Assembly: GCF_026212465.1 (NCBI RefSeq) | Contig: NC_080047.1 | Span: 42,752,059-42,816,058, forward strand | Origin: Amaranthus tricolor | Lineage: Eukaryota > Streptophyta > Magnoliopsida > Caryophyllales > Amaranthaceae | Direction: 5' to 3' | Length of the DNA stretch: 64,000 bases | Shown: positions 1-22,976 of the stretch, piece after piece | Layout of the letters: the number at the start of each line of letters is the position of its first letter | How positions within the stretch are numbered: the first letter of the stretch is position 1 | Translations under genes and position numbers: made by a program | Notes under the pieces: model-generated | Told to the model about the DNA's origin: nothing | Databases searched by the model: none | The model's input: the letters and a program-made list of their open reading frames with translations, nothing else

Positions 1-38
1 ACGAATATCAGTCATCAAGTGCAAAGGAAATGGATATT

Positions 39-89
39 ATCCCATATCAATCAGGAATATAGGTGCAAGCCTTGGAAGTATTATAAATA
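39..89 (+). promoter_or_regulatory. snRNA-type promoter (USE + TATA) of U5 copy A1
   Basis: ATCCCATATCA at 39-49 matches 9 of 11 positions of the plant snRNA Upstream Sequence Element RTCCCACATCG. TATAAATA lies at 82-89. The 32-bp gap is the spacing known for RNA polymerase II plant snRNA genes; Pol III-type genes have about 10 bp less. The same pair recurs at 4811-4861 and 9583-9633. It sits ahead of a damaged U5 copy, so any transcript would probably not be functional. Confidence 0.75.
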
Positions 90-117
90 GCTATTTTGAT
101 AACTACTAGAACCACGC

Positions 118-213
118 AGCCATGCAGTGAGCGCAAAGCGAATTATTCTTTCGCCTTTTACCGTGTGCTCGTTGCATATAATGGCATATGTTTATCTAAT
201 GAGGAGTTTCTAA
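118..213 (+). pseudogene. U5 snRNA pseudogene, A type, copy 1
   Basis: The sequence aligns with the intact U5 at 3471 and keeps loop I (GCCTTTTAC). The nine bases that form the 3' strand of the loop-I stem (TAAAGAATA) are missing. A second deletion removes the Sm site ATTTTTGG and the first strand of the 3' hairpin. Without a closed loop-I stem or an Sm site it should not assemble a snRNP. It starts 36 bp after the first T of the TATA box, as the intact copies do. Confidence 0.85.
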
Positions 214-400
214 TAGACTAGTACAAGAAGTTTTTATTGTGCACGGATATATGATATAAGCAATGATCATATGTTAAAAGTCCAACATGTCACTTAGGTT
301 GGGCTGGTTCGAATGTTCCGGTTTCAAACAATTTTGGCGGTTCCAATTCTCAGGTTGGGCGGATCAGAAACTTAATTGATATCTTTAATGAGTTAAGAGG

Positions 401-506
401 GATCCTGGCCGAAGTCGTTGGGCTCCACTGCACTTACCATCTCCGAAGTTGGGTGAGAGACTATCACAATTTGTGGCTGCCGGTGTTGGGAACTGCATTT
501 GTGCAG
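401..506 (+). pseudogene. U1 snRNA pseudogene, 3' two-thirds, copy A1
   Basis: It aligns with the U1 gene at 22,430 from about stem-loop I onward. It keeps a U1A-type loop remnant (CTGCACTT), the stem-loop III strand GGGTGAGAG, an Sm-like site (CACAATTTGTGG at 464-475) and a closing hairpin built on CTGCATTTGTGCAG. The 5' end that pairs with splice sites is absent. A minus-strand reading frame of 97 codons across this stretch has no family resemblance and is better explained by chance. Confidence 0.65.
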
Positions 507-1144
507 TAAATACTAAATACAAGAAGTCTATAGACTGTGTCCCCTTTATAATATGATCTCGATACTGTGATTGGCCTTGTTTTTGCACTATGGCTGTGCC
601 TTTCTTCTTCCAATCTATCATTAAGTCCTTTTTTTTTGCAAAAAGACCTTCAAATTTCCGATAACCTTGAAAATGCATCTCTCATTTCTAGGTTTACAAC
701 ATAAAGCAATAGATTAGCACCTTGTCACTTGTGGCGCCCCGTGCCCGGGTACTCATTTACGTTAAGGACAATAGTAACAATGCATGATCTTTATTCATTT
801 CTTTCTACAAATAGACATCAAAGATAAACCATTTAGAGCTATATGCCTTTACCAATATGCTACACGATTATTCTATATAAGCTGAGAATAACAAGCAAAA
901 AATTAGGAGTGATTTATTTAGGCAAACCAAGGTCATGCAGTAGTGTAACACATGGGGCTGGAAATATGATCATTGATACTTCAAATAATCACTTGATACA
1001 CTCCCGTGATGAAATTAGTTCGTGATGTCGGAACAAATCTCATGACCCATACTTTTTAGAATAGTAATATATCCCATACTAAGAAACTAAGAGAGCAAGC
1101 AAAAGAAAGATGAATTTAAAATGATGATGCATACTTCGATGCAA

Positions 1145-1210
1145 ATCACTTACCTGGATGGGATAAGTGGGTGATCAAGAATAATCATAGCCTTGGTTGT
1201 TGATCTCTAG
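1145..1210 (+). pseudogene. U1 snRNA pseudogene, 5' half, copy A1
   Basis: The sequence begins ATCACTTACCTGG, containing the splice-site-pairing ACUUACCUG of U1. It continues through the U1-70K loop (GTGATCAAGAA) and GGTTGTTGATCTC, then loses similarity where an old LTR-like sequence begins. Upstream, ATCCCATACTA near 1066 is a weak USE, and the TATA position reads TTTAAAATG, unlike the intact U1 promoter at 22,356-22,407. The U1 body is therefore split and its promoter weakened. Confidence 0.7.
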
Positions 1211-1234
1211 GTTGTATGCTTGTGTCCCTGAAGT

Positions 1235-1640
1235 TGAAGAGTGCACTTGTTGTGCGGTAGTGGAAGTAAAGATCGAAAACAATAATGAAACAATAAAGAT
1301 TCAAACAAACAATAAAGAAAATCATACTGAGAAATTAATATGCTTCACTATCAACGTGATAGTTACATCCATCGGCACCGAGAATAAACTTTTCAATATA
1401 AACCGGGAGATTACAAGATGAACACGAGAAATCACAACAATGGCTCTCCAAGCTTTTTCTCTCTTAGTTTTCCTCACTTTGTGTTTTGCATTGCATCTTG
1501 TTCTAATTCTAATTATATGGGGCCTTCATATAGTATACCTCATAATAAAAAGAAATTAGGGTTAAGAAAATACAAAAAACCGTCAAATACTAAGAGTAAC
1601 CAGCCAAAAACGTGCCAAGAAACCGCCATTACGCGAGCCG
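1235..1640 (-). mobile_element. Old inverted LTR remnant inside the U1 copy, unit 1
   Basis: The reverse complement of this stretch matches the LTR-like sequence at 26,329-26,774. Shared blocks include CTCGGTGCYGRTGGAYGTA, a paired ACTATCACGTTGATAGT hairpin, TTTATTGTTTCATTATTG and a terminal GCACAACA. Orientation is opposite to the 26-kb copy. The limits are approximate because both copies have decayed. Small reading frames of 74 and 76 codons fall in it and look accidental. Matching copies lie at about 6007-6412 and 10,779-11,184. Confidence 0.6.
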
Positions 1641-2629
1641 TGAAATGAAGACAAAACGCACTCCGCACCCCGCAGAGGTCCTATTGTTCGAGTCACCACA
1701 TTTCAGCAGTACTAATTACCCATATTAAAAAAATGTTAACTCATTTTAGTTTGGAAAGTGCCATACGCGTAATTCTGCATAAGAAACCTAGTTAAACAAA
1801 ATATGACATGCAAGAAAATGGTTCTGAATTTTACTATTTCATATCTTATTACTCGATGTAACCATCTTTGGGGATTGAAATTACCATTTCATACTTGAGC
1901 ATCTTTGTTGATCGTAAAGAAGTGATTAATTAAACATGCTATCCATATAAATTGGATTCGTAAGGAAAAGCACACCCTTGAGGCAAGCATTAAAATCAGA
2001 CAAATGGGTTTAACGTCAAATTTGCAGCAACCTATTCGACATAAGCAAAGCAACAAAATAAACAAAAAAAAAAAACACTAGAATCATCACAAGATTACAA
2101 AAATAAACAACTATCAACCATGCACCATAACATAGCACGATTTACATGTCTAAAGTTAAACTGCATCATTATGCATTTATGCTACACAAACATTTTAAAT
2201 ACGCTAGCAGGAAGTGTTAAGGAAAAATTTAGGACACTCACCCCCTCACTGAAAAAAAAAGTTAAAACTTTCAAACACATTCACTCCCAAGCTCCAATGG
2301 TGAAAAAGTAATCATGTGGTGAGTGAGAATAAAATAGAGGTAAAAAAGAAAATTATTCAATTACTTTTTACCAAAGATGGAGATAGTGCAAGTATTTTGA
2401 AACAACAAAAAAATATTAAGTGCAAGTATTATGTAACGAAGGAAGTACGATGTAGTATGATGCACTCTTTCCTAGTGAAGATATTATAATGTAAAGTATC
2501 ATTGTACTTAGATAAGGTCTTGGTCACGGTTGCGAAATGGCATTCGTGATCGATCCAAATAGTTTTCTGGTTGTGTTGGTGAAAGTAGAGGTCATGCAGT
2601 AATAATGTAACACATGAACTGGGAAACAA

Positions 2630-2685
2630 TTAAAGGAGAGTGAATGGAGGTGCCTATTTTGGCGCGGCCTCTGTCCATTCTCTTG
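2630..2685 (+). pseudogene. U1 snRNA 3' hairpin remnant, unit 1
   Basis: GTGAATGGAGGTGCC, then GGCGCGGCCTCTGTCC and ATTCTC, align with stem-loop IV and the 3' end of the U1 gene at 22,565-22,600 (GGCCTCTGTTCAATCT). No other part of U1 is visible next to it. It may be the 3' end of the U1 split near 1210, displaced by later insertions. Copies lie at 7402-7457 and 12,173-12,228. Confidence 0.5.
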
Positions 2686-3092
2686 TTATCAATGTGGACA
2701 AATACTAGACTTGATCAATACAGAGTCAGAAAGAATATGAAGTAAAACCTGGAGCAACACATAAGCAGAAGGTAAAGTAGAAGAAATCTACACATCATCA
2801 CTAACCAAAGAGAAATAAAATAAAATCTTTATGAACCAATTTGAGAAACTCCTCATTAATAATCGTCACTAACCTACCGCTCACCCTCCTTTATACGCGC
2901 TTGGAACCGGCAATAAGCACGGAGTTTAGGAAGTTCTGTTATTGATGTCATAAAATACAGTATAATGGAATGTTTCTAGTACATTTTTGCAGAAGATTTG
3001 TTAGACTTGTTTTCTTATGTGTTTGTTCTTGCAAAAGCATTTTATATTGTTGTGAAGAGCTAGGTAAAACAGCCATACTGGATGAGGATGCG

Positions 3093-3188
3093 TACCCCAG
3101 TGAGTAGACATGAGTATGAAAATTTTACCTACGGCGGAGGTACCCCAGTGAGTAGACATGAGTATGAAAATTTAACCTATGGCGGAGG
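3093..3188 (+). repeat. 48-bp direct repeat, two copies, unit 1
   Basis: A 48-bp segment starting TACCCCAGTGAGTAGACATG occurs at 3093-3140 and again at 3141-3188 with two mismatches. It is followed by GGGTATG-rich sequence. The pair recurs at 7865-7960 and 12,636-12,731. Confidence 0.9.
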
Positions 3189-3391
3189 GCGGGTATGAAA
3201 TTTTATAAGTGGGTATGGAAATGCATATTTGGAAAGTAATATTTATCTTGAGATCTAAAGTCTTTGGCAATGGATATTTTTGTTGAAATTCCTCAATGGG
3301 AAATATCAGGTATCAAGAGTTCAAGACCATTGATATAATGAAATTGTTGGGCAAACAATAACAGTCATCAAGTGCAAAGGAAATGGAAATT

Positions 3392-3442
3392 ATCCCATAT
3401 CAATCAGGAATAAAAGTGCAGGCCTTGGAAGTATTATAAATA
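3392..3442 (+). promoter_or_regulatory. Pol II snRNA promoter of U5 copy B1
   Basis: USE-like ATCCCATATCA at 3392-3402 and TATAAATA at 3435-3442, separated by 32 bp. The predicted U5 5' end (3471) is 36 bp after the first T of the TATA box. Spacing and motif order fit plant U-snRNA genes transcribed by Pol II. Confidence 0.8.
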
Positions 3443-3470
3443 GGTATTTTGATTTTGAACAAAATCACGC

Positions 3471-3592
3471 AGCCACGCAGTGAGCACATAGCGAACTATT
3501 CTTTCGCCTTTTACTAAAGAATACCGTGTGCTCGCTGTATTAAGTGGCATACGTTTATTTTTGGAGGGAATTCCGAATAAGGAGTTTCCAAC
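3471..3592 (+). ncRNA. U5: U5 spliceosomal snRNA, copy B1
   Basis: U5 is the core RNA of the U5 and U4/U6.U5 snRNPs and aligns exon ends during splicing. The invariant loop I GCCTTTTAC is at 3506-3514, closed by TATTCTTT and AAAGAATA. The outer stem pairs GCCAC with GTGGC, and GAGCACA with TGTGCTC. The Sm site ATTTTTGG is at 3557-3564. It is followed by a 3' hairpin GGGAATTCC-GAATAA-GGAGTTTCC and a 3'-box-like CAACAAGACTAG. All elements needed for a functional U5 are present with a matching promoter. The 5' end is set by the AGCC start and the TATA distance; the 3' end is good to a few bases. Confidence 0.92.
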
Positions 3593-4889
3593 AAGACTAG
3601 TTTGATAGATTATTTCACCTTTAAAATACTATAGCGATACAGTGTTTGGTCTTATTTTTTCACTATGATTGTTTTTTTCTTCCAATCTATCATAGGGCTA
3701 TTAACATTTAGCAATAACACAACTTATGACTTGTGTTGTATGGGTACACTCATTTACGGTAAGGACTATAGTACCAAAATATTAGTGCTTCATATCTTGT
3801 TACTTGATGTAGAAACCAACTTTGGGGGTTGGAAATATATACCGACATTTGTGCATCTTTGTACTGTAGAAAAAAACTTCTCATGACGGAAGCAATAAAT
3901 TAGATAAATGGGCTCAACGTCAAATTTCCAGCAACTATTTGACATAAGCAGTGCACAAAAAAAATTACTAGAATAGTCGCAAGATATATTAAATAAATAA
4001 CACTCGTACATTCTAAATACGCTAGCAGGAAAAGCAATAAATTGGTGTTAAGGAAAAATTTAGGACACTCACTCCCTCGCATAGAAAAAAGTTACAACTT
4101 CCAAATACATTCACTCTCGAAGTTTTAATGCTGAAAAAGTAATGATGTGGTGAGTACAATAAAATGGAGGTAAAATAGAAAATTATCGAGTTGCTTTTTA
4201 CTAAAGATGGAAAGAGTGCAAGTCCTGTGAAACAACCAAGAAAAGTAATAAGTGCAAGTATTATGGAACGGAGGAAATACAATATATTATCAAGTACTCT
4301 TTCCTAATGAAAATATTATAATGTAAAGTACCATTGTGCACTGATAAGGTTTTGGTCACGATTGCAAATTGGCTTTTGTGATCGATCTGAATAGTTTTCT
4401 GATTGTGTTGGTGCAAACTTGAGAAACTTCTCATTAATATTCATAGTGCTTGGGAATAGCATTATGCACGGAGTTTAGGGAGTTCTGTTATTGAAGTCAT
4501 AAAATACCTTACAATGGAATGTTTCTAGAACAATTTTGCAAAAGGTTTGTTTGACTTGTTCACACTCTATGCAATGTAAATAAGGAGGCTTTGATAAGCT
4601 GAATGAAGATAAAATTACCTCTCGGAGCTAGCAGTGCTCAAAAGCAGCATATCCATTCTTTGTTTTTCTTCCTTTTTTTCTACTACGCAGATTCTATCCA
4701 TTACAGATTCTCTCAAGGGAATATATCAGGTATTAAGAAGGGTACTAATGTTGTATACTGGTGCAAATAGTAACGAATATCAGTCATCAAGTGCAAAGGA
4801 AATGGATATTATCCCATATCAATCAGGAATATAGGTGCAAGCCTTGGAAGTATTATAAATAGCTATTTTGATAACTACTAGAACCACGC

Positions 4890-4985
4890 AGCCATGCAGT
4901 GAGCGCAAAGCGAATTATTCTTTCGCCTTTTACCGTGTGCTCGTTGCATATAATGGCATATGTTTATCTAATGAGGAGTTTCTAA
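4890..4985 (+). pseudogene. U5 snRNA pseudogene, A type, copy 2
   Basis: Exact repeat of the 118-213 pseudogene in the second tandem unit. It has the same loss of the loop-I 3' strand and the Sm site, so the damage predates the tandem amplification. Its promoter pair lies at 4811-4821 and 4854-4861. Confidence 0.85.
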
Positions 4986-5172
4986 TAGACTAGTACAAGA
5001 AGTTTTTATTGTGCACGGATATATGATATAAGCAATGATCATATGTTAAAAGTCCAACATGTCACTTAGGTTGGGCTGGTTCGAATGTTCCGGTTTCAAA
5101 CAATTTTGGCGGTTCCAATTCTCAGGTTGGGCGGATCAGAAACTTAATTGATATCTTTAATGAGTTAAGAGG

Positions 5173-5278
5173 GATCCTGGCCGAAGTCGTTGGGCTCCAC
5201 TGCACTTACCATCTCCGAAGTTGGGTGAGAGACTATCACAATTTGTGGCTGCCGGTGTTGGGAACTGCATTTGTGCAG
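5173..5278 (+). pseudogene. U1 snRNA pseudogene, 3' two-thirds, copy A2
   Basis: Second-unit copy of the 401-506 U1 remnant, identical by eye. It has no ACUUACC 5' end, so it could not recognise splice sites even if transcribed. Confidence 0.65.
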
Positions 5279-5916
5279 TAAATACTAAATACAAGAAGTC
5301 TATAGACTGTGTCCCCTTTATAATATGATCTCGATACTGTGATTGGCCTTGTTTTTGCACTATGGCTGTGCCTTTCTTCTTCCAATCTATCATTAAGTCC
5401 TTTTTTTTTGCAAAAAGACCTTCAAATTTCCGATAACCTTGAAAATGCATCTCTCATTTCTAGGTTTACAACATAAAGCAATAGATTAGCACCTTGTCAC
5501 TTGTGGCGCCCCGTGCCCGGGTACTCATTTACGTTAAGGACAATAGTAACAATGCATGATCTTTATTCATTTCTTTCTACAAATAGACATCAAAGATAAA
5601 CCATTTAGAGCTATATGCCTTTACCAATATGCTACACGATTATTCTATATAAGCTGAGAATAACAAGCAAAAAATTAGGAGTGATTTATTTAGGCAAACC
5701 AAGGTCATGCAGTAGTGTAACACATGGGGCTGGAAATATGATCATTGATACTTCAAATAATCACTTGATACACTCCCGTGATGAAATTAGTTCGTGATGT
5801 CGGAACAAATCTCATGACCCATACTTTTTAGAATAGTAATATATCCCATACTAAGAAACTAAGAGAGCAAGCAAAAGAAAGATGAATTTAAAATGATGAT
5901 GCATACTTCGATGCAA

Positions 5917-5982
5917 ATCACTTACCTGGATGGGATAAGTGGGTGATCAAGAATAATCATAGCCTTGGTTGTTGATCTCTAG
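5917..5982 (+). pseudogene. U1 snRNA pseudogene, 5' half, copy A2
   Basis: Second-unit copy of the truncated U1 at 1145-1210. It is interrupted at the same point by the inverted LTR remnant, so the break was present before the unit was amplified. Confidence 0.7.
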
Positions 5983-6006
5983 GTTGTATGCTTGTGTCCC
6001 TGAAGT

Positions 6007-6412
6007 TGAAGAGTGCACTTGTTGTGCGGTAGTGGAAGTAAAGATCGAAAACAATAATGAAACAATAAAGATTCAAACAAACAATAAAGAAAATCATACT
6101 GAGAAATTAATATGCTTCACTATCAACGTGATAGTTACATCCATCGGCACCGAGAATAAACTTTTCAATATAAACCGGGAGATTACAAGATGAACACGAG
6201 AAATCACAACAATGGCTCTCCAAGCTTTTTCTCTCTTAGTTTTCCTCACTTTGTGTTTTGCATTGCATCTTGTTCTAATTCTAATTATATGGGGCCTTCA
6301 TATAGTATACCTCATAATAAAAAGAAATTAGGGTTAAGAAAATACAAAAAACCGTCAAATACTAAGAGTAACCAGCCAAAAACGTGCCAAGAAACCGCCA
6401 TTACGCGAGCCG
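6007..6412 (-). mobile_element. Old inverted LTR remnant, unit 2
   Basis: Same LTR remnant as at 1235-1640, carried along by the tandem amplification. Confidence 0.6.
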
Positions 6413-7401
6413 TGAAATGAAGACAAAACGCACTCCGCACCCCGCAGAGGTCCTATTGTTCGAGTCACCACATTTCAGCAGTACTAATTACCCATATTAA
6501 AAAAATGTTAACTCATTTTAGTTTGGAAAGTGCCATACGCGTAATTCTGCATAAGAAACCTAGTTAAACAAAATATGACATGCAAGAAAATGGTTCTGAA
6601 TTTTACTATTTCATATCTTATTACTCGATGTAACCATCTTTGGGGATTGAAATTACCATTTCATACTTGAGCATCTTTGTTGATCGTAAAGAAGTGATTA
6701 ATTAAACATGCTATCCATATAAATTGGATTCGTAAGGAAAAGCACACTCTTGAGGCAAGCATTAAAATCAGACAAATGGGTTTAACGTCAAATTTGCAGC
6801 AACCTATTCGACATAAGCAAAGCAACAAAATAAACAAAAAAAAAAAACACTAGAATCATCACAAGATTACAAAAATAAACAACTATCAACCATGCACCAT
6901 AACATAGCACGATTTACATGTCTAAAGTTAAACTGCATCATTATGCATTTATGCTACACAAACATTTTAAATACGCTAGCAGGAAGTGTTAAGGAAAAAT
7001 TTAGGACACTCACCCCCTCACTGAAAAAAAAAGTTAAAACTTTCAAACACATTCACTCCCAAGCTCCAATGGTGAAAAAGTAATCATGTGGTGAGTGAGA
7101 ATAAAATAGAGGTAAAAAAGAAAATTATTCAATTACTTTTTACCAAAGATGGAGATAGTGCAAGTATTTTGAAACAACAAAAAAATATTAAGTGCAAGTA
7201 TTATGTAACGAAGGAAGTACGATGTAGTATGATGCACTCTTTCCTAGTGAAGATATTATAATGTAAAGTATCATTGTACTTAGATAAGGTCTTGGTCACG
7301 GTTGCGAAATGGCATTCGTGATCGATCCAAATAGTTTTCTGGTTGTGTTGGTGAAAGTAGAGGTCATGCAGTAATAATGTAACACATGAACTGGGAAACA
7401 A

Positions 7402-7457
7402 TTAAAGGAGAGTGAATGGAGGTGCCTATTTTGGCGCGGCCTCTGTCCATTCTCTTG
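7402..7457 (+). pseudogene. U1 snRNA 3' hairpin remnant, unit 2
   Basis: Second-unit copy of the stem-loop IV remnant at 2630-2685. Confidence 0.5.
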
Positions 7458-7864
7458 TTATCAATGTGGACAAATACTAGACTTGATCAATACAGAGTCA
7501 GAAAGAATATGAAGTAAAACCTGGAGCAACACATAAGCAGAAGGTAAAGTAGAAGAAATCTACACATCATCACTAACCAAAGAGAAATAAAATAAAATCT
7601 TTATGAACCAATTTGAGAAACTCCTCATTAATAATCGTCACTAACCTACCGCTCACCCTCCTTTATACGCGCTTGGAACCGGCAATAAGCACGGAGTTTA
7701 GGAAGTTCTGTTATTGATGTCATAAAATACAGTATAATGGAATGTTTCTAGTACATTTTTGCAGAAGATTTGTTAGACTTGTTTTCTTATGTGTTTGTTC
7801 TTGCAAAAGCATTTTATATTGTTGTGAAGAGCTAGGTAAAACAGCCATACTGGATGAGGATGCG

Positions 7865-7960
7865 TACCCCAGTGAGTAGACATGAGTATGAAAATTTTAC
7901 CTACGGCGGAGGTACCCCAGTGAGTAGACATGAGTATGAAAATTTAACCTATGGCGGAGG
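7865..7960 (+). repeat. 48-bp direct repeat, two copies, unit 2
   Basis: Same pair of 48-bp repeats as at 3093-3188. Confidence 0.9.
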
Positions 7961-8163
7961 GCGGGTATGAAATTTTATAAGTGGGTATGGAAATGCATAT
8001 TTGGAAAGTAATATTTATCTTGAGATCTAAAGTCTTTGGCAATGGATATTTTTGTTGAAATTCCTCAATGGGAAATATCAGGTATCAAGAGTTCAAGACC
8101 ATTGATATAATGAAATTGTTGGGCAAACAATAACAGTCATCAAGTGCAAAGGAAATGGAAATT

Positions 8164-8214
8164 ATCCCATATCAATCAGGAATAAAAGTGCAGGCCTTGG
8201 AAGTATTATAAATA
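8164..8214 (+). promoter_or_regulatory. Pol II snRNA promoter of U5 copy B2
   Basis: Copy of the 3392-3442 promoter: USE-like element at 8164-8174 and TATAAATA at 8207-8214. Confidence 0.8.
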
Positions 8215-8242
8215 GGTATTTTGATTTTGAACAAAATCACGC

Positions 8243-8364
8243 AGCCACGCAGTGAGCACATAGCGAACTATTCTTTCGCCTTTTACTAAAGAATACCGTG
8301 TGCTCGCTGTATTAAGTGGCATACGTTTATTTTTGGAGGGAATTCCGAATAAGGAGTTTCCAAC
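8243..8364 (+). ncRNA. U5: U5 spliceosomal snRNA, copy B2
   Basis: Identical to the B1 gene at 3471-3592, including loop I, Sm site, 3' hairpin and 3' box. Two identical intact U5 copies in adjacent units suggest recent amplification or gene conversion. Confidence 0.92.
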
Positions 8365-9661
8365 AAGACTAGTTTGATAGATTATTTCACCTTTAAAATA
8401 CTATAGCGATACAGTGTTTGGTCTTATTTTTTCACTATGATTGTTTTTTTCTTCCAATCTATCATAGGGCTATTAACATTTAGCAATAACACAACTTATG
8501 ACTTGTGTTGTATGGGTACACTCATTTACGGTAAGGACTATAGTACCAAAATATTAGTGCTTCATATCTTGTTACTTGATGTAGAAACCAACTTTGGGGG
8601 TTGGAAATATATACCGACATTTGTGCATCTTTGTACTGTAGAAAAAAACTTCTCATGACGGAAGCAATAAATTAGATAAATGGGCTCAACGTCAAATTTC
8701 CAGCAACTATTTGACATAAGCAGTGCACAAAAAAAATTACTAGAATAGTCGCAAGATATATTAAATAAATAACACTCGTACATTCTAAATACGCTAGCAG
8801 GAAAAGCAATAAATTGGTGTTAAGGAAAAATTTAGGACACTCACTCCCTCGCATAGAAAAAAGTTACAACTTCCAAATACATTCACTCTCGAAGTTTTAA
8901 TGCTGAAAAAGTAATGATGTGGTGAGTACAATAAAATGGAGGTAAAATAGAAAATTATCGAGTTGCTTTTTACTAAAGATGGAAAGAGTGCAAGTCCTGT
9001 GAAACAACCAAGAAAAGTAATAAGTGCAAGTATTATGGAACGGAGGAAATACAATATATTATCAAGTACTCTTTCCTAATGAAAATATTATAATGTAAAG
9101 TACCATTGTGCACTGATAAGGTTTTGGTCACGATTGCAAATTGGCTTTTGTGATCGATCTGAATAGTTTTCTGATTGTGTTGGTGCAAACTTGAGAAACT
9201 TCTCATTAATATTCATAGTGCTTGGGAATAGCATTATGCACGGAGTTTAGGGAGTTCTGTTATTGAAGTCATAAAATACCTTACAATGGAATGTTTCTAG
9301 AACAATTTTGCAAAAGGTTTGTTTGACTTGTTCACACTCTATGCAATGTAAATAAGGAGGCTTTGATAAGCTGAATGAAGATAAAATTACCTCTCGGAGC
9401 TAGCAGTGCTCAAAAGCAGCATATCCATTCTTTGTTTTTCTTCCTTTTTTTCTACTACGCAGATTCTATCCATTACAGATTCTCTCAAGGGAATATATCA
9501 GGTATTAAGAAGGGTACTAATGTTGTATACTGGTGCAAATAGTAACGAATATCAGTCATCAAGTGCAAAGGAAATGGATATTATCCCATATCAATCAGGA
9601 ATATAGGTGCAAGCCTTGGAAGTATTATAAATAGCTATTTTGATAACTACTAGAACCACGC

Positions 9662-9757
9662 AGCCATGCAGTGAGCGCAAAGCGAATTATTCTTTCGCCT
9701 TTTACCGTGTGCTCGTTGCATATAATGGCATATGTTTATCTAATGAGGAGTTTCTAA
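9662..9757 (+). pseudogene. U5 snRNA pseudogene, A type, copy 3
   Basis: Third copy of the same damaged U5, with promoter pair at 9583-9593 and 9626-9633. I saw no differences from the first two copies. Confidence 0.85.
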
Positions 9758-9944
9758 TAGACTAGTACAAGAAGTTTTTATTGTGCACGGATATATGATA
9801 TAAGCAATGATCATATGTTAAAAGTCCAACATGTCACTTAGGTTGGGCTGGTTCGAATGTTCCGGTTTCAAACAATTTTGGCGGTTCCAATTCTCAGGTT
9901 GGGCGGATCAGAAACTTAATTGATATCTTTAATGAGTTAAGAGG

Positions 9945-10050
9945 GATCCTGGCCGAAGTCGTTGGGCTCCACTGCACTTACCATCTCCGAAGTTGGGTGA
10001 GAGACTATCACAATTTGTGGCTGCCGGTGTTGGGAACTGCATTTGTGCAG
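9945..10050 (+). pseudogene. U1 snRNA pseudogene, 3' two-thirds, copy A3
   Basis: Third-unit copy of the U1 remnant seen at 401-506, with the same Sm-like CACAATTTGTGG and terminal hairpin. Confidence 0.65.
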
Positions 10051-10688
10051 TAAATACTAAATACAAGAAGTCTATAGACTGTGTCCCCTTTATAATATGA
10101 TCTCGATACTGTGATTGGCCTTGTTTTTGCACTATGGCTGTGCCTTTCTTCTTCCAATCTATCATTAAGTCCTTTTTTTTTGCAAAAAGACCTTCAAATT
10201 TCCGATAACCTTGAAAATGCATCTCTCATTTCTAGGTTTACAACATAAAGCAATAGATTAGCACCTTGTCACTTGTGGCGCCCCGTGCCCGGGTACTCAT
10301 TTACGTTAAGGACAATAGTAACAATGCATGATCTTTATTCATTTCTTTCTACAAATAGACATCAAAGATAAACCATTTAGAGCTATATGCCTTTACCAAT
10401 ATGCTACACGATTATTCTATATAAGCTGAGAATAACAAGCAAAAAATTAGGAGTGATTTATTTAGGCAAACCAAGGTCATGCAGTAGTGTAACACATGGG
10501 GCTGGAAATATGATCATTGATACTTCAAATAATCACTTGATACACTCCCGTGATGAAATTAGTTCGTGATGTCGGAACAAATCTCATGACCCATACTTTT
10601 TAGAATAGTAATATATCCCATACTAAGAAACTAAGAGAGCAAGCAAAAGAAAGATGAATTTAAAATGATGATGCATACTTCGATGCAA

Positions 10689-10754
10689 ATCACTTACCTG
10701 GATGGGATAAGTGGGTGATCAAGAATAATCATAGCCTTGGTTGTTGATCTCTAG
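10689..10754 (+). pseudogene. U1 snRNA pseudogene, 5' half, copy A3
   Basis: Third-unit copy of the truncated U1, with the same ACTTACCTGG start and the same breakpoint. Confidence 0.7.
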
Positions 10755-10778
10755 GTTGTATGCTTGTGTCCCTGAAGT

Positions 10779-11184
10779 TGAAGAGTGCACTTGTTGTGCG
10801 GTAGTGGAAGTAAAGATCGAAAACAATAATGAAACAATAAAGATTCAAACAAACAATAACGAAAATCATACTGAGAAATTAATATGCTTCACTATCAACG
10901 TGATAGTTACATCCATCGGCACCGAGAATAAACTTTTCAATATAAACCGGGAGATTACAAGATGAACACGAGAAATCACAACAATGGCTCTCCAAGCTTT
11001 TTCTCTCTTAGTTTTCCTCACTTTGTGTTTTGCATTGCATCTTGTTCTAATTCTAATTATATGGGGCCTTCATATAGTATACCTCATAATAAAAAGAAAT
11101 TAGGGTTAAGAAAATACAAAAAACCGTCAAATACTAAGAGTAACCAGCCAAAAACGTGCCAAGAAACCGCCATTACGCGAGCCG
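10779..11184 (-). mobile_element. Old inverted LTR remnant, unit 3
   Basis: Same LTR remnant, third unit. The C at 10860 (A in the other copies) is one of the three differences seen across the array. Confidence 0.6.
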
Positions 11185-12172
11185 TGAAATGAAGACAAAA
11201 CGCACTCCGCACCCCGCAGAGGTCCTATTGTTCGAGTCACCACATTTCAGCAGTACTAATTACCCATATTAAAAAAATGTTAACTCATTTTAGTTTGGAA
11301 AGTGCCATACGCGTAATTCTGCATAAGAAACCTAGTTAAACAAAATATGACATGCAAGAAAATGGTTCTGAATTTTACTATTTCATATCTTATTACTCGA
11401 TGTAACCATCTTTGGGGATTGAAATTACCATTTCATACTTGAGCATCTTTGTTGATCGTAAAGAAGTGATTAATTAAACATGCTATCCATATAAATTGGA
11501 TTCGTAAGGAAAAGCACACTCTTGAGGCAAGCATTAAAATCAGACAAATGGGTTTAACGTCAAATTTGCAGCAACCTATTCGACATAAGCAAAGCAACAA
11601 AATAAACAAAAAAAAAAACACTAGAATCATCACAAGATTACAAAAATAAACAACTATCAACCATGCACCATAACATAGCACGATTTACATGTCTAAAGTT
11701 AAACTGCATCATTATGCATTTATGCTACACAAACATTTTAAATACGCTAGCAGGAAGTGTTAAGGAAAAATTTAGGACACTCACCCCCTCACTGAAAAAA
11801 AAAGTTAAAACTTTCAAACACATTCACTCCCAAGCTCCAATGGTGAAAAAGTAATCATGTGGTGAGTGAGAATAAAATAGAGGTAAAAAAGAAAATTATT
11901 CAATTACTTTTTACCAAAGATGGAGATAGTGCAAGTATTTTGAAACAACAAAAAAATATTAAGTGCAAGTATTATGTAACGAAGGAAGTACGATGTAGTA
12001 TGATGCACTCTTTCCTAGTGAAGATATTATAATGTAAAGTATCATTGTACTTAGATAAGGTCTTGGTCACGGTTGCGAAATGGCATTCGTGATCGATCCA
12101 AATAGTTTTCTGGTTGTGTTGGTGAAAGTAGAGGTCATGCAGTAATAATGTAACACATGAACTGGGAAACAA

Positions 12173-12228
12173 TTAAAGGAGAGTGAATGGAGGTGCCTAT
12201 TTTGGCGCGGCCTCTGTCCATTCTCTTG
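12173..12228 (+). pseudogene. U1 snRNA 3' hairpin remnant, unit 3
   Basis: Third-unit copy of the stem-loop IV remnant, shifted by one base because of the upstream poly-A loss. Confidence 0.5.
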
Positions 12229-12635
12229 TTATCAATGTGGACAAATACTAGACTTGATCAATACAGAGTCAGAAAGAATATGAAGTAAAACCTGGAGCAA
12301 CACATAAGCAGAAGGTAAAGTAGAAGAAATCTACACATCATCACTAACCAAAGAGAAATAAAATAAAATCTTTATGAACCAATTTGAGAAACTCCTCATT
12401 AATAATCGTCACTAACCTACCGCTCACCCTCCTTTATACGCGCTTGGAACCGGCAATAAGCACGGAGTTTAGGAAGTTCTGTTATTGATGTCATAAAATA
12501 CAGTATAATGGAATGTTTCTAGTACATTTTTGCAGAAGATTTGTTAGACTTGTTTTCTTATGTGTTTGTTCTTGCAAAAGCATTTTATATTGTTGTGAAG
12601 AGCTAGGTAAAACAGCCATACTGGATGAGGATGCG

Positions 12636-12731
12636 TACCCCAGTGAGTAGACATGAGTATGAAAATTTTACCTACGGCGGAGGTACCCCAGTGAGTAGAC
12701 ATGAGTATGAAAATTTAACCTATGGCGGAGG
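12636..12731 (+). repeat. 48-bp direct repeat, two copies, unit 3
   Basis: Same pair of 48-bp repeats as at 3093-3188. Confidence 0.9.
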
Positions 12732-12934
12732 GCGGGTATGAAATTTTATAAGTGGGTATGGAAATGCATATTTGGAAAGTAATATTTATCTTGAGATCTA
12801 AAGTCTTTGGCAATGGATATTTTTGTTGAAATTCCTCAATGGGAAATATCAGGTATCAAGAGTTCAAGACCATTGATATAATGAAATTGTTGGGCAAACA
12901 ATAACAGTCATCAAGTGCAAAGGAAATGGAAATT

Positions 12935-12985
12935 ATCCCATATCAATCAGGAATAAAAGTGCAGGCCTTGGAAGTATTATAAATA
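12935..12985 (+). promoter_or_regulatory. Pol II snRNA promoter of U5 copy C
   Basis: USE-like ATCCCATATCA at 12,935-12,945 and TATAAATA at 12,978-12,985, with the same 32-bp gap as the B copies. Confidence 0.8.
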
Positions 12986-13013
12986 GGTATTTTGATTTTG
13001 AACAAAATCATGC

Positions 13014-13135
13014 AGCCACGCAGTGAGCACATAGCGAACTATTCTTTCGCCTTTTACTAAAGAATACTGTGTGCTCGCTGTATTAAGTGGCATATGTTTA
13101 TTTTTGGAGGGAATTCCAAATAAGGAGTTTCCAAC
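13014..13135 (+). ncRNA. U5: U5 spliceosomal snRNA, variant copy C
   Basis: Full-length U5 with intact loop I, loop-I stem, Sm site and 3' hairpin. It differs from B1/B2 at ACTGTG for ACCGTG, CATATG for CATACG, and CCAAAT for CCGAAT in the terminal loop region. These changes lie outside the conserved loop and Sm site, so function is plausible. It marks where the near-identical array ends and an older unit begins. Confidence 0.88.
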
Positions 13136-13310
13136 AAGACTAGTACAAAATTTTATTTAATTATAAATATATGTGATTAAAAAAATCTTATGAGAATTAA
13201 AGCATATTTGAATGTGTCTATTCCTTATCTATAGAAAGCCCAACATGTTAATGTCTTTTTCAATTAGAACTTAGAAGAGATGATGAAATCAGAAACATAA
13301 ATTAATAATT

Positions 13311-13678: not shown

Positions 13679-13683
13679 CAATA
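13679..13683. repeat. Target site duplication of Copia element 1 (left)
   Basis: CAATA precedes the LTR here and follows the other LTR at 21,478-21,482. The uninterrupted site GGCAATAAGCACGG is seen at 2912-2925 and in the other units. Confidence 0.9.
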
Positions 13684-13965
13684 TGTAGGAAAATTTAGAT
13701 GATAAAATAGTGAATGGATTTATTTGGAGAGGAAGATGAGTGAATATGTAGAATGAATATTGTTCTTCATTGCACAAAAAAATTGATTACATCAATGGGT
13801 ATTTATAGTGCAAGTTTACTAAAATATCTTAGATATTTTCATTTTTTTAATTACTTTTCTAGGATCTTCCATTATATTATCTTAGATATTTTTATTTTTT
13901 AATTCTTTAGTTTAGATATTTTTATATTTAATTAAAATCCTAGATTTTTCTAGATTATTTTAACA
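13684..13965 (-). repeat. 3' LTR of Copia element 1
   Basis: Bounded by TG...CA on either strand. On the minus strand it is immediately preceded by the purine-rich TTAGGGGGAG (about 13,966-13,976), the expected polypurine tract for plus-strand priming. Confidence 0.9.
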
Positions 13966-13971
13966 CTCCCC

Positions 13972-14178
13972 CTAATCTGAAAAATCTTGAATTCTAAGTT
14001 GTCTTATGAACTCGATAAATCTATCAGTTGATATGGGTTTTGTGAAAATGTCTGCGAGCTGCTCCCCCGTCTTGCAGAATTGTAGTTCGATCTCTTTCTT
14101 GTCTACCAACTCACGAATGTAGTGATGTCGTATCTCGATGGGTTTTGATCTGCTATGAAACACTGGATTCTTCGTCAT
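13972..14178 (-). pseudogene. Copia RNase H, C-terminal remnant
   Basis: The 68 residues include HHYIRELVDKKEIELQFC and EQLADIFTKPI, the well-known tail of Copia RNase H. The preceding RNase H core (the DWAG and SSxEAEY regions) is missing, and the frame starts just after the RT ends at MYRSLVG. A deletion of a few hundred bases has therefore removed the catalytic part. Confidence 0.85.
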
Positions 14179-14183
14179 TGGTA

Positions 14184-18200: not shown

Positions 18201-18732
18201 AGAAAATCAACTAAAACAATAATGAAAAATGAAAACCCACAAATTTTACAAACCAATGCAAAACCCTAGAAAAAAACAAGAATTACCAGTAATCAACCAT
18301 CAATTGAAAAGAACAAGTAATCAACAAATTAACAATTAAATAAGTAATGGAATTGAAGGTCACGAAGGTCACGATGAGACGAAGGTCACGAAGCTCACCA
18401 TTGACGAACAGAGTCAGACGAAGTGTCGAAGTCGGACAGTGAACAGTCGAAGCGAAGAGGAAGGAGCCGGCGTCGTCAGCAAGGAGAACAGCCGGCATCG
18501 GCGCGTCGGAGTGCAAGGACCAGTCGAACTGTCGAAGTATGGAATTGAAGAGGATTGAGGAAGAGGAAGGCAGGAAGGCCGAAGTTTAGGGTTTGTTTTT
18601 GGGTTTTCCTCTTTCTTCCGCCTCCAGCACGCTTCTTTTCAATTTTTTTTTATTTTTTTTTTAAACCGCATTTAATTTTTTCAGATTGGGGGGTCCACTG
18701 CCCCCCCTTGCCCCTAGCTGGGTCCGCCCCTG
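15260..18732 (-). mobile_element. hAT transposon (TTF-type zinc-finger transposase), nested in Copia
   Basis: Terminal inverted repeats are CAGTGGCGGACCCAG on the left and CAGGGGCGGACCCAG on the right (as reverse complement), 14 of 15 matching. It is flanked by the perfect 8-bp duplication GTTTGTTG. The 3,473-bp element encodes a degraded transposase on the minus strand. The insertion falls in the linker between Copia integrase and reverse transcriptase, so the hAT is younger than the Copia. Confidence 0.95.
15470..17985 (-). pseudogene. hAT transposase, TTF zinc-finger / hAT dimerisation type, broken
   Basis: The protein is read in pieces from 17,985 down. A Ser/Pro-rich N-terminus comes first (17,572-17,985). 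A frame change leads into the TTF-type zinc-finger region with CQPKTHDFPQTN, RRFSLNWFKKWDWLEYS and FCFVCYLFK. The central transposase part has MADESSDVSQKEQLALVLRF and GYDGASNMRG (16,156-16,983). The C-terminal hAT dimerisation domain has LPVATASVERVFSAM (15,470-15,802). In-frame stops occur, for example where LLGQGLAFRG is expected near 17,220, and near 15,830. It belongs to the group often annotated as zinc finger MYM-type protein 1-like. The element is not autonomous as it stands. Confidence 0.9.
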
Positions 18733-18740
18733 GTTTGTTG

Positions 18741-19626
18741 GTTGGCCTGCTCCGTCTTCTTCACTTGGATCTCTTAGGAGAGTATCTCCTTCGCGAGCTT
18801 CAGTTTCTTTTTCTTTCCACGTCCATTCGGCTGCTTCGTCGAAAATTACGTCTCTAGAGATGATTAATTGTTTAGATTCAGGCTTGTAAAGGCGATATCC
18901 TTTTGTTTCGTGACTGTATCCAATGAATATGCATTTTTCTCCCTTCTCATCGAGCTTTTCCCGATTCTCCTTCGGGATGTAGGCATAAGCTACGCATCCG
19001 AACACTTTGAGGTGTTCTACTCTTGGCTTTCTCTTGTGCCAGGATTCATATGGCGTTAAATCCCTAACTGCTTTTGTGGGAGATCTATTGAGGATATATA
19101 CTGCCGTGTGAACAGCTTCGGCCCAGTATCCTTTGGGTAGATGTTTACCCTACATCATGTTGCGGACTATCTCTGCTATAGTGCGGTTTTTCCTTTCCGC
19201 GACACCATTTTGTTGAGGTGTACGCCTTGCTGTAAGTTCTCTTTTAATCCCATGCTTCTTACAGAAGTTGTTGAATTCGTTGCTTGTAAATTCTCCGCCA
19301 CGATCCGTTCTAAGAATCTTAAGAGAATGCCCACTTTGATTTTTTGTGAAGGCTTTGAATTCCATGAAGTGGGAAAAAGCTTCTGATTTTTTCTCCATGA
19401 AATATACCCACATCATGCGGGAGTAGTCATCTACGAACAGAAGAATATATCCTTTTCCGCCAAGAGACGGATTCTTGGTAGGACCCCAGATATCTGCATG
19501 AACAAGCTCTAGAGAAGCCTTGGCCCTCCAAGGTGCGGTAGGAAATGGCAATCTGTGCATCTTGCCATATATACAGCCTTCGCAAATTTTACTTTCATTT
19601 TTTATTGATGGTAGTCCAATTACCAT
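18741..19626 (-). pseudogene. Copia integrase, core and C-terminal parts
   Basis: From 19,626 down: the zinc-binding end CEGCIYGKMHRLPFP, then the DDE core with LVHADIWGP, LRTDRGGEF and TPQQNGVAERKNRTI holding the two Asp and the Glu. A stop (TAG, near 19,152) follows VRNMM where Lys is normal. The frame resumes through LPKGYWAEA and VFGCVAYAYIP to CIFIGYSHETKGYRLYKP, the usual Copia C-terminal part. The sequence then meets the hAT insertion. Confidence 0.9.
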
Positions 19627-20060
19627 TTATTTTTGTTTTAATAGTTTGAGACTCTTAAAATTTAGATGCCCGAATCTCAAATGCCATAAGGTGGATTCAT
19701 CATTTATTGAGTTTAAAGCCAATTTTTCTTCAAATGGCAATTTTAATGGGAATATTTTGTTAGGAGCCATTTCAACAGTTGTTATTATCTGACCCTTATT
19801 TTTATCATAGATTTGACATTTGTTATTCTCAAATTTAACCATATATCCTTTTTTAATTAATTGGCCTACGCTTAATAAATTTTGTGCAAGTCCGGGAACA
19901 TAAAAAACTCATGAATTAATTTTGATGAGCCATTTTTTGTTTTAACGGCGATTGTTCCTTTTTCGGCGACATCTTCTTTTTTACCATCGCCAAGTGTAAT
20001 GTGTGTTTTAACATTTTCGTCAAGAGTGACAAAATAATTTTTATCTCCGGTCATGTGATT
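19627..20060 (-). pseudogene. Copia pre-integrase and protease region
   Basis: The stretch includes LWHLRFGHLNFKSLKLL, the GAG-pre-integrase HxxxH region. Upstream is a protease-like segment ending with GDKNYFVTLDENVKTH and FFMFPDLHK. Several stops or frame changes separate the blocks, for example near 19,870 and 19,910. Confidence 0.75.
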
Positions 20061-20289
20061 TGAACAACCACTATCAATATACCATATGTCACTTACTTTT
20101 TCTTGTGCATTTAATCCAGTGTAAAATATTTGCTCTCCAGAATTATTGTTTTCGGAATAGTTTGCTTTTTCTTTTTGTCGATACCAACAATCTTTTTCGA
20201 GGTGAGAGTGTTTTTTACACCTCTTACATTTGTACCGACAATCATTAATATTGTGGTTAGTTTTCTTACATAATTTACAATAAAGGTCA

Positions 20290-21092
20290 ATTTGATTATT
20301 TAATCAACTCCTTTGATTTTTAAAATTTCCTCTCCCCTTGCTACAATTAGTTGATGTTTGTCCTTTTTCATGATTTTTACAATGACTATTTTTATTTTCA
20401 CCATTAGAAAATTTTAATTTAGCTTGAAAAGCTTGTTCCAGTGGTTCTTCGTTAAATCTTTTTAATCTATCTTCATGTGCAAGTAGTGATCCCATTAATT
20501 CGGGTATACTTAATTAAGAAAAATTTTTCTTGTTAACTTCTTATATTGTTGTGGCAATAATGTTATATTTTTGTGATAGACTCCTTAATATTTTTCGAAT
20601 CACATTTTCATCTTCTATTTTACAACCATTTGATCTTATTTGATAAACTATATTAGTGACTCGGTCAAAAAATGAATGTATTGTTTCATTTTCTGCCATT
20701 AATAGATTATCAAATTCTCTCCATAGTGATTGGAGTTTAAAAAGAATTACCTCTTCGGAACCTCTGTATTTTGTCTCCAGGATCCTCCAAGCCTCCGTAG
20801 CTGTTTTTGCAGGCATGATCGTTGTAAGTATTGCCTCGTCGACTCCACGATATAATAGGGATAGGGCATAGTTATCCCTTATCCTATTTTGTTTATATTG
20901 TTTTATTTTTGTTTCATCCCAAGATGACTCTTTAGTGTCATCTTTGGGTGGTTGCTTGTAACTTTCTTGTACTAATTCCCATAAATCTTGGGAGATAAAT
21001 ATTGACCTCATTTGCATAGTCCATTGTTCATATTTTTCTCCTTTAAATGTGGGAACCCAATTAACTTGGGGTTAATTAGTAGTTGAGGTCAT
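20290..21092 (-). pseudogene. Copia gag (UBN2-like) with damaged start
   Basis: The likely start is the ATG at 21,092-21,090, followed by MTSTTN and an in-frame TAA, then WVPTFKGEKYEQWTMQMRS and the gag helix region LWELVQESYKQPP. Further on is a UBN2-type block with AWRILETKYRGS and LQSLWREFDNL. The part near 20,300-20,500 carries a Lys-rich tail before the CCHC knuckle, which lies around 20,180-20,280 in another frame. Confidence 0.8.
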
Positions 21093-21193
21093 TTTTTATT
21101 TTGTGGTTAGAGGTTTATTTTATTGTGGAGTATGTTAGTTAATGTGTTTAGGTTGTTTGGAGGTCTTGGTTTTAATTAGTTCTTGATATCAAA

Positions 21194-21477
21194 TGTTAGG
21201 AAAATTTAGATGGTAAAATAGTGAATGAATTTATTTGGAGAGGAAGATGAGTGAATATATAGAGTGGATATTGTTCTTCATTGTACAAAAAAATTTATTA
21301 CATCAATGGGTATTTATAGTGCAAGTTTACTAAAATATCTTAGATATTTTCATTTTTTTTAATTACTTTTCTAGGATCTTCCATTATATTATCTTAGATA
21401 TTTTTATTTTTTAATTCTTTAGTTTAGATATTTTTATATTTAATTGAAATCCTAGATTTTTCTAAATTATTTTAACA
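21194..21477 (-). repeat. 5' LTR of Copia element 1
   Basis: Matches the 3' LTR over its whole length. On the minus strand it is followed by TGATATCAAGAAC, which resembles the initiator-methionine tRNA primer site TGGTATCAGAGC with mismatches. Confidence 0.9.
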
Positions 21478-21482
21478 CAATA
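21478..21482. repeat. Target site duplication of Copia element 1 (right)
   Basis: CAATA, pairing with 13,679-13,683. The snRNA spacer resumes with AGCACGGAGTTTAGG. Confidence 0.9.
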
Positions 21483-21685
21483 AGCACGGAGTTTAGGAAG
21501 TTCTGTTATTGATGTCATAAAATACATTATAATGGAACGTTTCTAGTACAATTTTGCAGAAGGTTTGTTAGACTTGTTCCCACTCTATATGCAATGTAAA
21601 TAAACGGCTTTATATGCTGAATGAAATATGTTGAATAGAAATACAAGTTACCTCTTGGAGCTAGCAGTGGTCAAAAGCTGCATTA

Positions 21686-21736
21686 TATCCATATCAATCA
21701 GGAATATAGGTGCAAGCCTTGGTGGTAATATAAATA
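21686..21736 (+). promoter_or_regulatory. snRNA promoter of U5 copy D
   Basis: TATCCATATCA at 21,686-21,696 is the USE with one C lost. TATAAATA is at 21,729-21,736, so the 32-bp gap is kept. The deletion probably weakens the element. Confidence 0.7.
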
Positions 21737-21764
21737 GCCATTTTGATAATTGTCGGAACCACGC

Positions 21765-21910
21765 AGCCACGCAGTGAGCACATTGCAAACTATTCTTTCG
21801 CCTCACTGCAAACTATTCTTTCGCCTTTTACTAAAGAATACTGTGCGCTTGCTGCATAGAGTGGCATACATTTATTTTTGGAGGGAATTCCTAATAAGGA
21901 GTTTCCAACA
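21765..21910 (+). pseudogene. U5: U5 snRNA copy D with a 23-bp internal duplication
   Basis: It has loop I, an AAAGAATA partner strand, the Sm site ATTTTTGG and the 3' hairpin, like the B copies. The 5' strand of the loop-I stem (CAYTGCAAACTATTCTTTCG plus CCT) is present twice in tandem, at 21,781-21,803 and 21,804-21,826. The first copy would bulge from the stem or compete for pairing. I call it a likely pseudogene, although the rest of the fold is intact and it starts at the correct distance from its TATA box. Confidence 0.75.
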
Positions 21911-22034
21911 AGACTATCACAAATTGTCCTTAAAATATAAAGAAATGTGATTAAAAAATCTTACGAGAATAGAGGCATATGTTAATACGTAATCTGTAAA
22001 AAGCCCACAAGTTGTACAATTGAGTTTTTATGAG

Positions 22035-22134
22035 GGATCCTGGCTGAAGTAGTTAAGCTCTGTTGCACTTGCCATCTCTGAAGTTAGGTGAAAGACTAGC
22101 ACAATTTATGGCTGCTGGGACCTGCATTTGTGCA
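22035..22134 (+). pseudogene. U1 snRNA pseudogene, 3' two-thirds, copy D
   Basis: The diverged counterpart of 401-506. It holds CTGTTGCACTTGCC (U1A-loop region), an Sm-like GCACAATTTATGG and the CTGCATTTGTGCAG hairpin. The order U5, broken U1, then full U1 matches unit A, which shows an ancestral U5-U1-U1 module. Confidence 0.65.
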
Positions 22135-22355
22135 GTAAATACTAAATACAGCAAGTTTGTTATATATGCCAACATGCAACAATGGGGGAGTGATTCGGTA
22201 GGGCAAGCCAAAGCTCAATTAACTGTGTTGCTAAATAAATAAGGAGAACTGAAATATGATCATGGAAACCTCAAATAATCACTATATATACACTCTCGTA
22301 ATGGAAATTAGTTTGTGATGTTGGAACATATCCCATACTTTTTAGAAGAGAATAT

Positions 22356-22407
22356 ATCCCACATTAAGAAACTAACAAACCATAGAAAAGATAGATGAAT
22401 ATAAAAG
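22356..22407 (+). promoter_or_regulatory. Pol II snRNA promoter of the U1 gene
   Basis: ATCCCACATTA at 22,356-22,366 matches 9 of 11 USE positions. TATAAAAG is at 22,400-22,407, 33 bp away, the Pol II spacing. It is stronger than the counterpart ahead of the broken U1 at 1145, which has lost its TATA box. Confidence 0.8.
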
Positions 22408-22429
22408 GATTATGTGTACAACTTTACAA

Positions 22430-22593
22430 ATCACTTACCTGGACGGGGTCAATGAGTGATCAAGAAAACTTATGGCCTAGGTTGTTGACCTCCATTGCAC
22501 TTCAAGGAGGGGCAACTGCCTAAGATCTCCCCAAGTTGGGAGAGTCTACGTCATAATTTGTGATAGTGGGGGCCAGCGTTCGCGCGGCCTCTG
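22430..22593 (+). ncRNA. U1: U1 spliceosomal snRNA, full length
   Basis: U1 recognises 5' splice sites by base pairing. The 5' end carries ACTTACCTG. Stem-loop I has the U1-70K loop GATCAAGAA with compensated stem changes. Stem-loop II is CCTCC-ATTGCACTTCAA-GGAGG with the U1A-binding ATTGCAC. Stem-loop III pairs CTCCC with GGGAG. The Sm site ATAATTTGTGA is at 22,553-22,563. Stem-loop IV is GGGGGCC, GCGTTCGCGC, GGCCTCT. The length of about 164 nt is normal for U1. One oddity is ATC-ACTTACC at the start where AT-ACTTACC is usual, so the 5' end may carry an extra base or start slightly later. All domains and a good promoter are present, so this is the best U1 candidate here. Confidence 0.9.
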
Positions 22594-22686
22594 TTCAATC
22601 TTGAGTAAAATCTTATCAATATGAGTAAAATATAATTATGCTTCATAATATTAAGTCTAAGGGTGATTTTTTGTCTAGTTAACTTT

Positions 22687-22724
22687 AGCATATAGTGGCA
22701 TAAGTTCATTTTTGGAGGGAATTT
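22687..22724 (+). pseudogene. U5 snRNA 3' fragment
   Basis: AGCATATAGTGGCATAAG, then TTCATTTTTGGAGGGAATT, match the 3' half of U5, including the GTGGC stem strand and the Sm site. Loop I is missing. It shows that at least one more U5 copy once lay downstream. Confidence 0.7.
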
Positions 22725-22811
22725 TCTGGCAATTACTACAACGAACTATGAATTTACATTATCAAGTACCCTTTCCTAGTGAAATTAATATAGAATTGAA
22801 GGTGAAAGGAA

Positions 22812-22852
22812 AGTGATAGTAGGGGCCTGTGAACACTGCCCCTGTCCAATCT
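22812..22852 (+). pseudogene. U1 snRNA stem-loop IV remnant
   Basis: GTGATAGTAGGGGCCTGTG, then GCCCCTGTCCAATCTCT, match the end of U1 at 22,561-22,600. No other U1 part is next to it. It is the last recognisable snRNA trace before Copia element 2. Confidence 0.55.
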
Positions 22853-22976
22853 CTAGTTATAATCTTTATCGAAGTGGAGGAATATAAGTGCATTAAGGTA
22901 CAAGTTGTTTTTGGTCAAGGACCATGGCTTGAGTAGGTTAGTATCAATGAACGCCTATAAGTGTCCACAATAGGAC

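Follow-up and report, generated by a model that had tools for sequence, protein, structure and literature searches.

A 64,000-nucleotide stretch of the 520-Mb Amaranthus tricolor genome (C1:42752059-42816058, hereafter the window), with no run of N inside it, was characterized for its genes for the small nuclear RNAs (snRNAs) U5 and U1. The Rfam covariance models for U1 (RF00003, gathering cut-off 69.5 bits) and U5 (RF00020, 40 bits) were applied, and a second pass with a relaxed threshold covered window positions 1-26000. Among proteins, the best named matches come from Bienertia and Chenopodium. On the plus strand, three U5 copies have an intact RNA part: 3471..3587 and the similar copy 8243..8359 (94.4 bits each), and 13014..13130 (91.1 bits). 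The Rfam alignments of all three contain loop I, GCCUUUUAC, a closed stem and the Sm site, AUUUUUGG. U5 of the array can be recognized by GCTGTATTAAG in combination with a 5'-end GCAGTGAGC. Three further plus-strand copies (118..221, 4890..4993 and 9662..9765) are broken: their loop-I stem is 10 bp short and there is no Sm site. They were recovered at 32.9 bits each with the relaxed threshold, below the cut-off of 40. Rfam called 3471, 8243, 13014, 21788 and a U1 at 22431, confirming the U5 and U1 loci of an earlier reading of the letters alone (the original prediction); the scores at 3471, 8243, 13014 and 22430 were all above threshold.

Window positions 1-13144 form a head-to-tail repeat with a period of 4772 bp, on the plus strand. 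The unit contains, in order, a broken U5, U1 remnants and an intact U5, so that intact and broken copies do alternate as predicted, one of each per unit. Two neighbouring full units differ from the complete unit at 1..4772 by 2 and 1 bases; the second unit in the window (4773..9544) carries 1 base different from the first. Full units in and adjoining the window show 0-2 changes each; they are nearly identical along all 4772 bp, which is what recent duplication predicts. The last unit (9545..13144) is partial, stopping just past the 3' end of its U5, and differs from positions 1-3601 by six substitutions and one deletion. Of the six substitutions, the four that fall within or next to its U5 are all CpG transitions, as expected of methylated DNA. 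The U1 remnants consist of a 5' fragment (1148..1207, plus strand, E-value 1e-9), repeated in each unit (5920 and 10692), and weak pieces at 403-435 and 2649-2681 (E-value 0.004 each).

Positions 13145-22860 are an older, diverged part of the array, split by a Copia element. The long terminal repeats of this element (13686..13966 and 21197..21478) are 96.45% identical; it has an RVT_2 domain and, by eye, a 5-bp target duplication, CAATA. To its right lie, all on the plus strand, a broken U5 with a 23-bp internal duplication (21765..21904), a full U1 (22431..22593) and a U5 3' fragment. The duplication shifts the start of the Rfam model, so that 58.8 bits were scored for 21788-21904; the loop-I stem of this copy is broken. 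The U1 scored 132.3 bits against the cut-off of 69.5 and has the 5' ACUUACC and an Sm site; its first two bases are UC, not AU, as in L010 (L numbers denote individual genomic loci). The U5 3' fragment, which carries an Sm-like site and had been placed near 22687, was recovered by BLAST only, at 22694..22723 (match to L014 1764-1793). Of the array originally drawn from 1 to 22860, the tandem arrangement and the mixed U5/U1 ancestry hold, but the near-perfect repeat is confined to 1-13144 and the rest is diverged and Copia-split. A DUF4371 reading frame was seen inside the Copia-flanked region (16156-16983), and a second, broken Copia-like element directly to the right of the array (22977-25874; reading frames, by eye).

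Promoters were compared through the upstream sequence element (USE), scored against RTCCCACATCG. The 3' box of plant snRNA genes transcribed by RNA polymerase II is CA(N)3-10AGTNNAA; neither consensus is derived from this species. The USE of the U5 at 3471 (ATCCCATATCA, 3392..3402, plus strand) matches at 9/11 positions, as do those of the U5 copies at 118 and 13014 and of the U1 at 22431, while the U5 at 21765 reaches 6/11. U5 genes of loci on C8, C17 and C3 (L001, L007 and L013) have 11/11, and that of L012 has 10/11. The element lies at -79 in the U5 genes of all four of these loci and at 118, 3471 and 13014. By eye, the end of the 11-nt USE and the TATA box are 32 bp apart at U5 3471 and 33 bp at the U1, in agreement with the predicted pairs at 32-33 bp and with an expected spacing of about 32-34.

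The 3' ends separate the copies further. A 3' box is present at the U5 genes of L001, L007 and L013, at U5 13014 and at the U1 at 22431; the strict motif was not found at U5 3471, 8243 or 21788 in a motif search (a match by chance is expected at 0.08 per 60 bp). About 230 bp present at 13014 are missing from 3471; AGT stands at either end of this deletion, by which the 3' box is cut. The broken U5 at 118 carries the same AGTACAA at the deletion point as 13014, and we infer that the 13014 state is older than the 3471 state. Given two off-consensus bases in the USE and a cut 3' box, the amplified U5 copies appear impaired and are probably weak or silent, though not proven dead. The live look ascribed to them thus holds for the RNA part, which is intact, but not for the USE, with its two mismatches, nor for the 3' end, where the amplified copies lack a strict 3' box.

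The original prediction was that mixed U5 and U1 genes are amplified as one unit and may feed gene conversion between variants; the adjacency of an intact and a broken U5 in every unit would fit this. The unit, however, holds U1 fragments only, and the sole full U1, at 22431, lies outside it. Nor does identity rise at the genes: within the unit, the intact and broken U5 gene blocks are 83% alike, against 82% and 86% for the two spacer blocks. The two U5 blocks are old duplicates of each other, and a mixed amplicon undergoing gene conversion is very improbable.

The array extends upstream of the window, where L038 holds two further intact U5 copies and one broken copy. An exact 39-nt tag of the array U5 was found at 12 places in the genome. 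Eight of them are on C1, in two sets of four (42.632-42.647 Mb and 42.746-42.760 Mb), with a spacing of 4772 bp within each set. The U5 at 13014 differs within the tag and falls outside this count. The other four places are single (one on C2, two on C4, one on C13). The block at C1:42.63 Mb is a second block of the 4772-bp unit; it starts with a more diverged stretch holding a U5-like sequence (L062 2520-2636, 89% to 3471).

Assembly gaps of 100 N lie at C1:42648144-42648243 and 42744089-42744188 (L083, L038), and the block ends facing them are cut inside a unit. In the piece between the two blocks, a 2030-bp flank at 42742059 recurs at 42694498 with 100% identity, and 723 bp of it are found again at 42648244; the repeated flank pieces around the gaps are spaced by 47.56 kb and are 100% identical where compared. 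Gaps inside units and a repeated flank make the assembled copy number and order unreliable, and raise the question of whether the exact repetition is partly an artefact of haplotype or contig duplication. Against this, units carry private differences, at unit positions 1682 and 1976 and in the last unit, and the window itself is free of N runs. A partial artefact is a possibility that we consider unlikely. Left of the second gap lies what appears, by eye, to be a carrier-protein gene.

We conclude that the array probably arose when a decaying member of an old plant U5-U1 cluster was recently amplified in tandem. An old cluster would have been in partial decay, and a deletion of about 230 bp would have cut the 3' box of its intact U5 before amplification. 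One 4772-bp segment, comprising that U5, an already broken U5 and U1 remnants, would then have been copied repeatedly in head-to-tail order, unequal recombination being the simplest route. The turnover of this array shows a unit copied with a dead gene inside and with the 3' signal damaged before amplification, and counting Rfam matches overstates the number of working snRNA genes.

An alternative is that the copies form a working, dosage-driven set, multiplied and kept since they add U5 RNA. The eight exact tags on C1, the intact and conserved RNA part between flanks that are not conserved, the TATA box and the exact -79 spacing of the USE would all fit such a set. It is harder to reconcile with the state of the amplified copies tested (3471 and 8243), whose USE matches at 9/11 and which have no strict 3' box, with the equal amplification of the broken U5, and with the perfect signals found at three other U5 loci. 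We regard a dosage-driven set as unlikely.

Several observations nevertheless weigh against decay. Over 109 bp, the RNA part of U5 3471 and the C8 U5 share 96% identity, with no match found in the flanks, and the TATA box of 3471 is good. The 94.4 bits of U5 3471 compare with 97.1 for the best match in a genome-wide U5 scoring, which covered the best 47 of 53,844 first-look candidates, the window's own copies being outside that list. These comparisons suggest that the RNA part was under constraint until recently, and it may still be. A USE of 9/11 also occurs at three amplified U1 genes on C2 (L016-L018), and one of 10/11 at the U1 genes of L010 and L012, like the L012 U5, genes that may or may not be active. 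A strict 3' box was likewise not found in four of 11 genes outside the window and the transposon family described below (the U1 genes of L009, L010 and L016 and the U5 of L012), so its absence need not mean silence. Finally, the C3 U5, with its perfect USE, also shows CpG losses. The idea that CpG decay marks dead copies in general was dropped, six informative CpG bases proving nothing, and only the four-of-four transitions in the last unit were kept. In a tree of U5 with promoter, the four window copies group together (96/96, the bootstrap not being settled) and little else is resolved. In all, the feature in the window is real but of an ordinary kind, mostly normal gene-cluster turnover.

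A mixed U5/U1 array had been thought unusual, a view that the rest of the genome does not bear out. U5 followed by U1 in the same orientation occurs at C17 7.39 Mb, C3 36.57 Mb and C4 2.1 Mb, and inside a U1-U1-U5-U1 group at C8 30.87 Mb. BLAST similarity between the window and the C17, C3, C4 and C8 loci is limited to the genes and about 40 bp, indicating that the linkage is either ancient or of repeated origin. U1 without U5 was found in the stretches fetched from C2, C4 (21.02-21.03 Mb) and C14 (4.6 Mb). On C2 (36.49-36.57 and 19.77-19.80 Mb; L016-L018, L059 and L060), U1 genes form arrays with two of them in each 12.17-kb unit; no U5 was found in the fetched unit. At C4:21.02-21.03 Mb (L061), 12 near-full U1 copies and further pieces lie within 9 kb; U1 matches in the region score 80.6-104.1 bits.

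Linked snRNA genes are also known from other organisms. Arabidopsis has U1-U4 and U2-U5 groups (PMC545797), which the amaranth loci resemble in being small sets of different snRNA genes, with USE and TATA and with pseudogene members. They differ from the Arabidopsis groups described there, whose genes are spaced by less than 0.3 kb, in that U5 is followed by U1 at about 0.5-1.5 kb, and in that one block has been amplified as a 4.8-kb unit. Among fish, U1-U2-U5 linkage occurs in Soleidae and U2-U5 linkage in others (as cited in PMC3464664); the Soleidae arrays likewise combine U1 and U5, but fish arrays are animal arrays with another promoter type.

Outside the window, most of the U5 places examined belong to a mobile element. 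Judged by its sequence, a hAT-type miniature inverted-repeat transposable element (MITE) has captured a U5 gene together with its USE and is dispersed over the genome. Of the 47 scored U5 places, 45 lie in this one family, L001 and L007 being the others; of 67 places examined for the MITE, 65 are copies of it. Copies were found at L002-L006, L008, L019-L037, L040-L058 and L086-L105. The right arm is present in 45/45 (53-245 bp matched). Damage to the left arm was seen in some copies (L005, L022, L033), and L040-L058 were fetched with only part of that arm. A single insertion, copied by a 47.5-kb duplication, accounts for five of the 45 (L023-L025, L040 and L041), and U5-MITE copies on C3 recur every 47.5 kb.

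The element is about 772 bp long, with ends TAGGGCTGGCAAAA...TTTGACACCCCTA, and has terminal inverted repeats. An exact 8-bp target duplication, taken as the best of nine offset pairs, was found in 18 of 25 loci, representing 16 different sites; one further locus has a single mismatch, and in six of the 25 there was none within one mismatch. Three of the exact duplications (L019, L029 and L030) surround the MITE alone and 15 surround a second hAT-like element of about 1.7-2.1 kb that encloses it. In nested copies the inner element lacks an exact duplication of its own, which is expected if a single nested insertion was subsequently copied. About 290 bp of the MITE match the C17 U5 locus (L011 326-619) at 95-96%. 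The matching part starts some 190 bp upstream of U5 and includes the Sm site as its far end, and the stretch around the USE is doubled. Diagnostic of the U5 within the MITE are GCCGTGAGC and, past the Sm site, AAGCCTTTAATT.

A 42-nt U5 pattern, with up to three mismatches allowed, occurred at 202 places in the genome and at none in a reversed control; about half of the 202 were listed individually. By sequence, ten of them should belong to the C1 array (eight tags, 13014 and L062); with L001 and L007 also set aside, up to 190 are left. Twenty places with an exact match, none of them among the 47, were all the same MITE (20/20), with an exact USE in 13. No 3' box was found within 110 bp of the Sm site in any of the 25 MITE copies checked. 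From these signals the MITE U5 resembles a passenger gene whose promoter is good but which lacks a proper 3' end.

Selection acting on the U5 of the MITE was considered and dropped. In 24 high-scoring alignments, a set leaving out L024 and L025 (duplicates of L023) and short alignments, U5 is off consensus at 0.95% of positions and the arms at 2.13% and 1.94%; these copies had been chosen by U5 score. A cruder count including truncated copies (arms 9.9% and 6.0%) was set aside. In the 20 further loci, selected because 42 nt in the 3' part of U5 match exactly, the remaining 55 nt of U5 differ by 3.19% and the arms by 2.28% and 2.12%, giving no sign of constraint.

The element resembles the Pack-TYPE transposons of the Pack-hAT group, non-autonomous hAT elements with terminal inverted repeats, 8-bp target duplications and captured host DNA (PMC8903248), all of which the U5 MITE shares. 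It differs in its cargo, an snRNA gene with its promoter; the term 'snRNA' occurs nowhere in the main text of that article. Among the literature matches listed, no title concerned a transposon-borne U5 gene, which does not show its absence from print, and PMC7789003 holds both 'U5 snRNA' and 'miniature inverted-repeat'. A MITE with a U5 gene is the part that a specialist would not expect, and is more surprising than the array in the window. As 45 of the 47 scored U5 places are transposon cargo, automated U5 annotation of this plant would mislead. A speculative scenario, to which we give little credence as a whole, is that the MITE took its U5 from the C17 U5-U1 locus or its ancestor and spread to perhaps 190 places, many of them nested. 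With an exact USE in 13 of the 20 sampled copies, snRNA-type promoters and U5 sequences might be far more numerous on transposons than in genuine U5 genes, and some might be transcribed into variant U5 or into RNAs with 3' extensions, in competition for Sm proteins. Since the transposon carries a perfect USE, a supply of U5 to the spliceosome from mobile copies is directly testable.

Two other gene-like features were noted in the window, both on the minus strand. A BAHD-type acyltransferase (PF02458) is represented by its C-terminal half at 53601-54254 and its N-terminal half at 58125-58796, about 3.9 kb apart, and exons at 39624-41545 resemble augmin subunit 1 (by eye).

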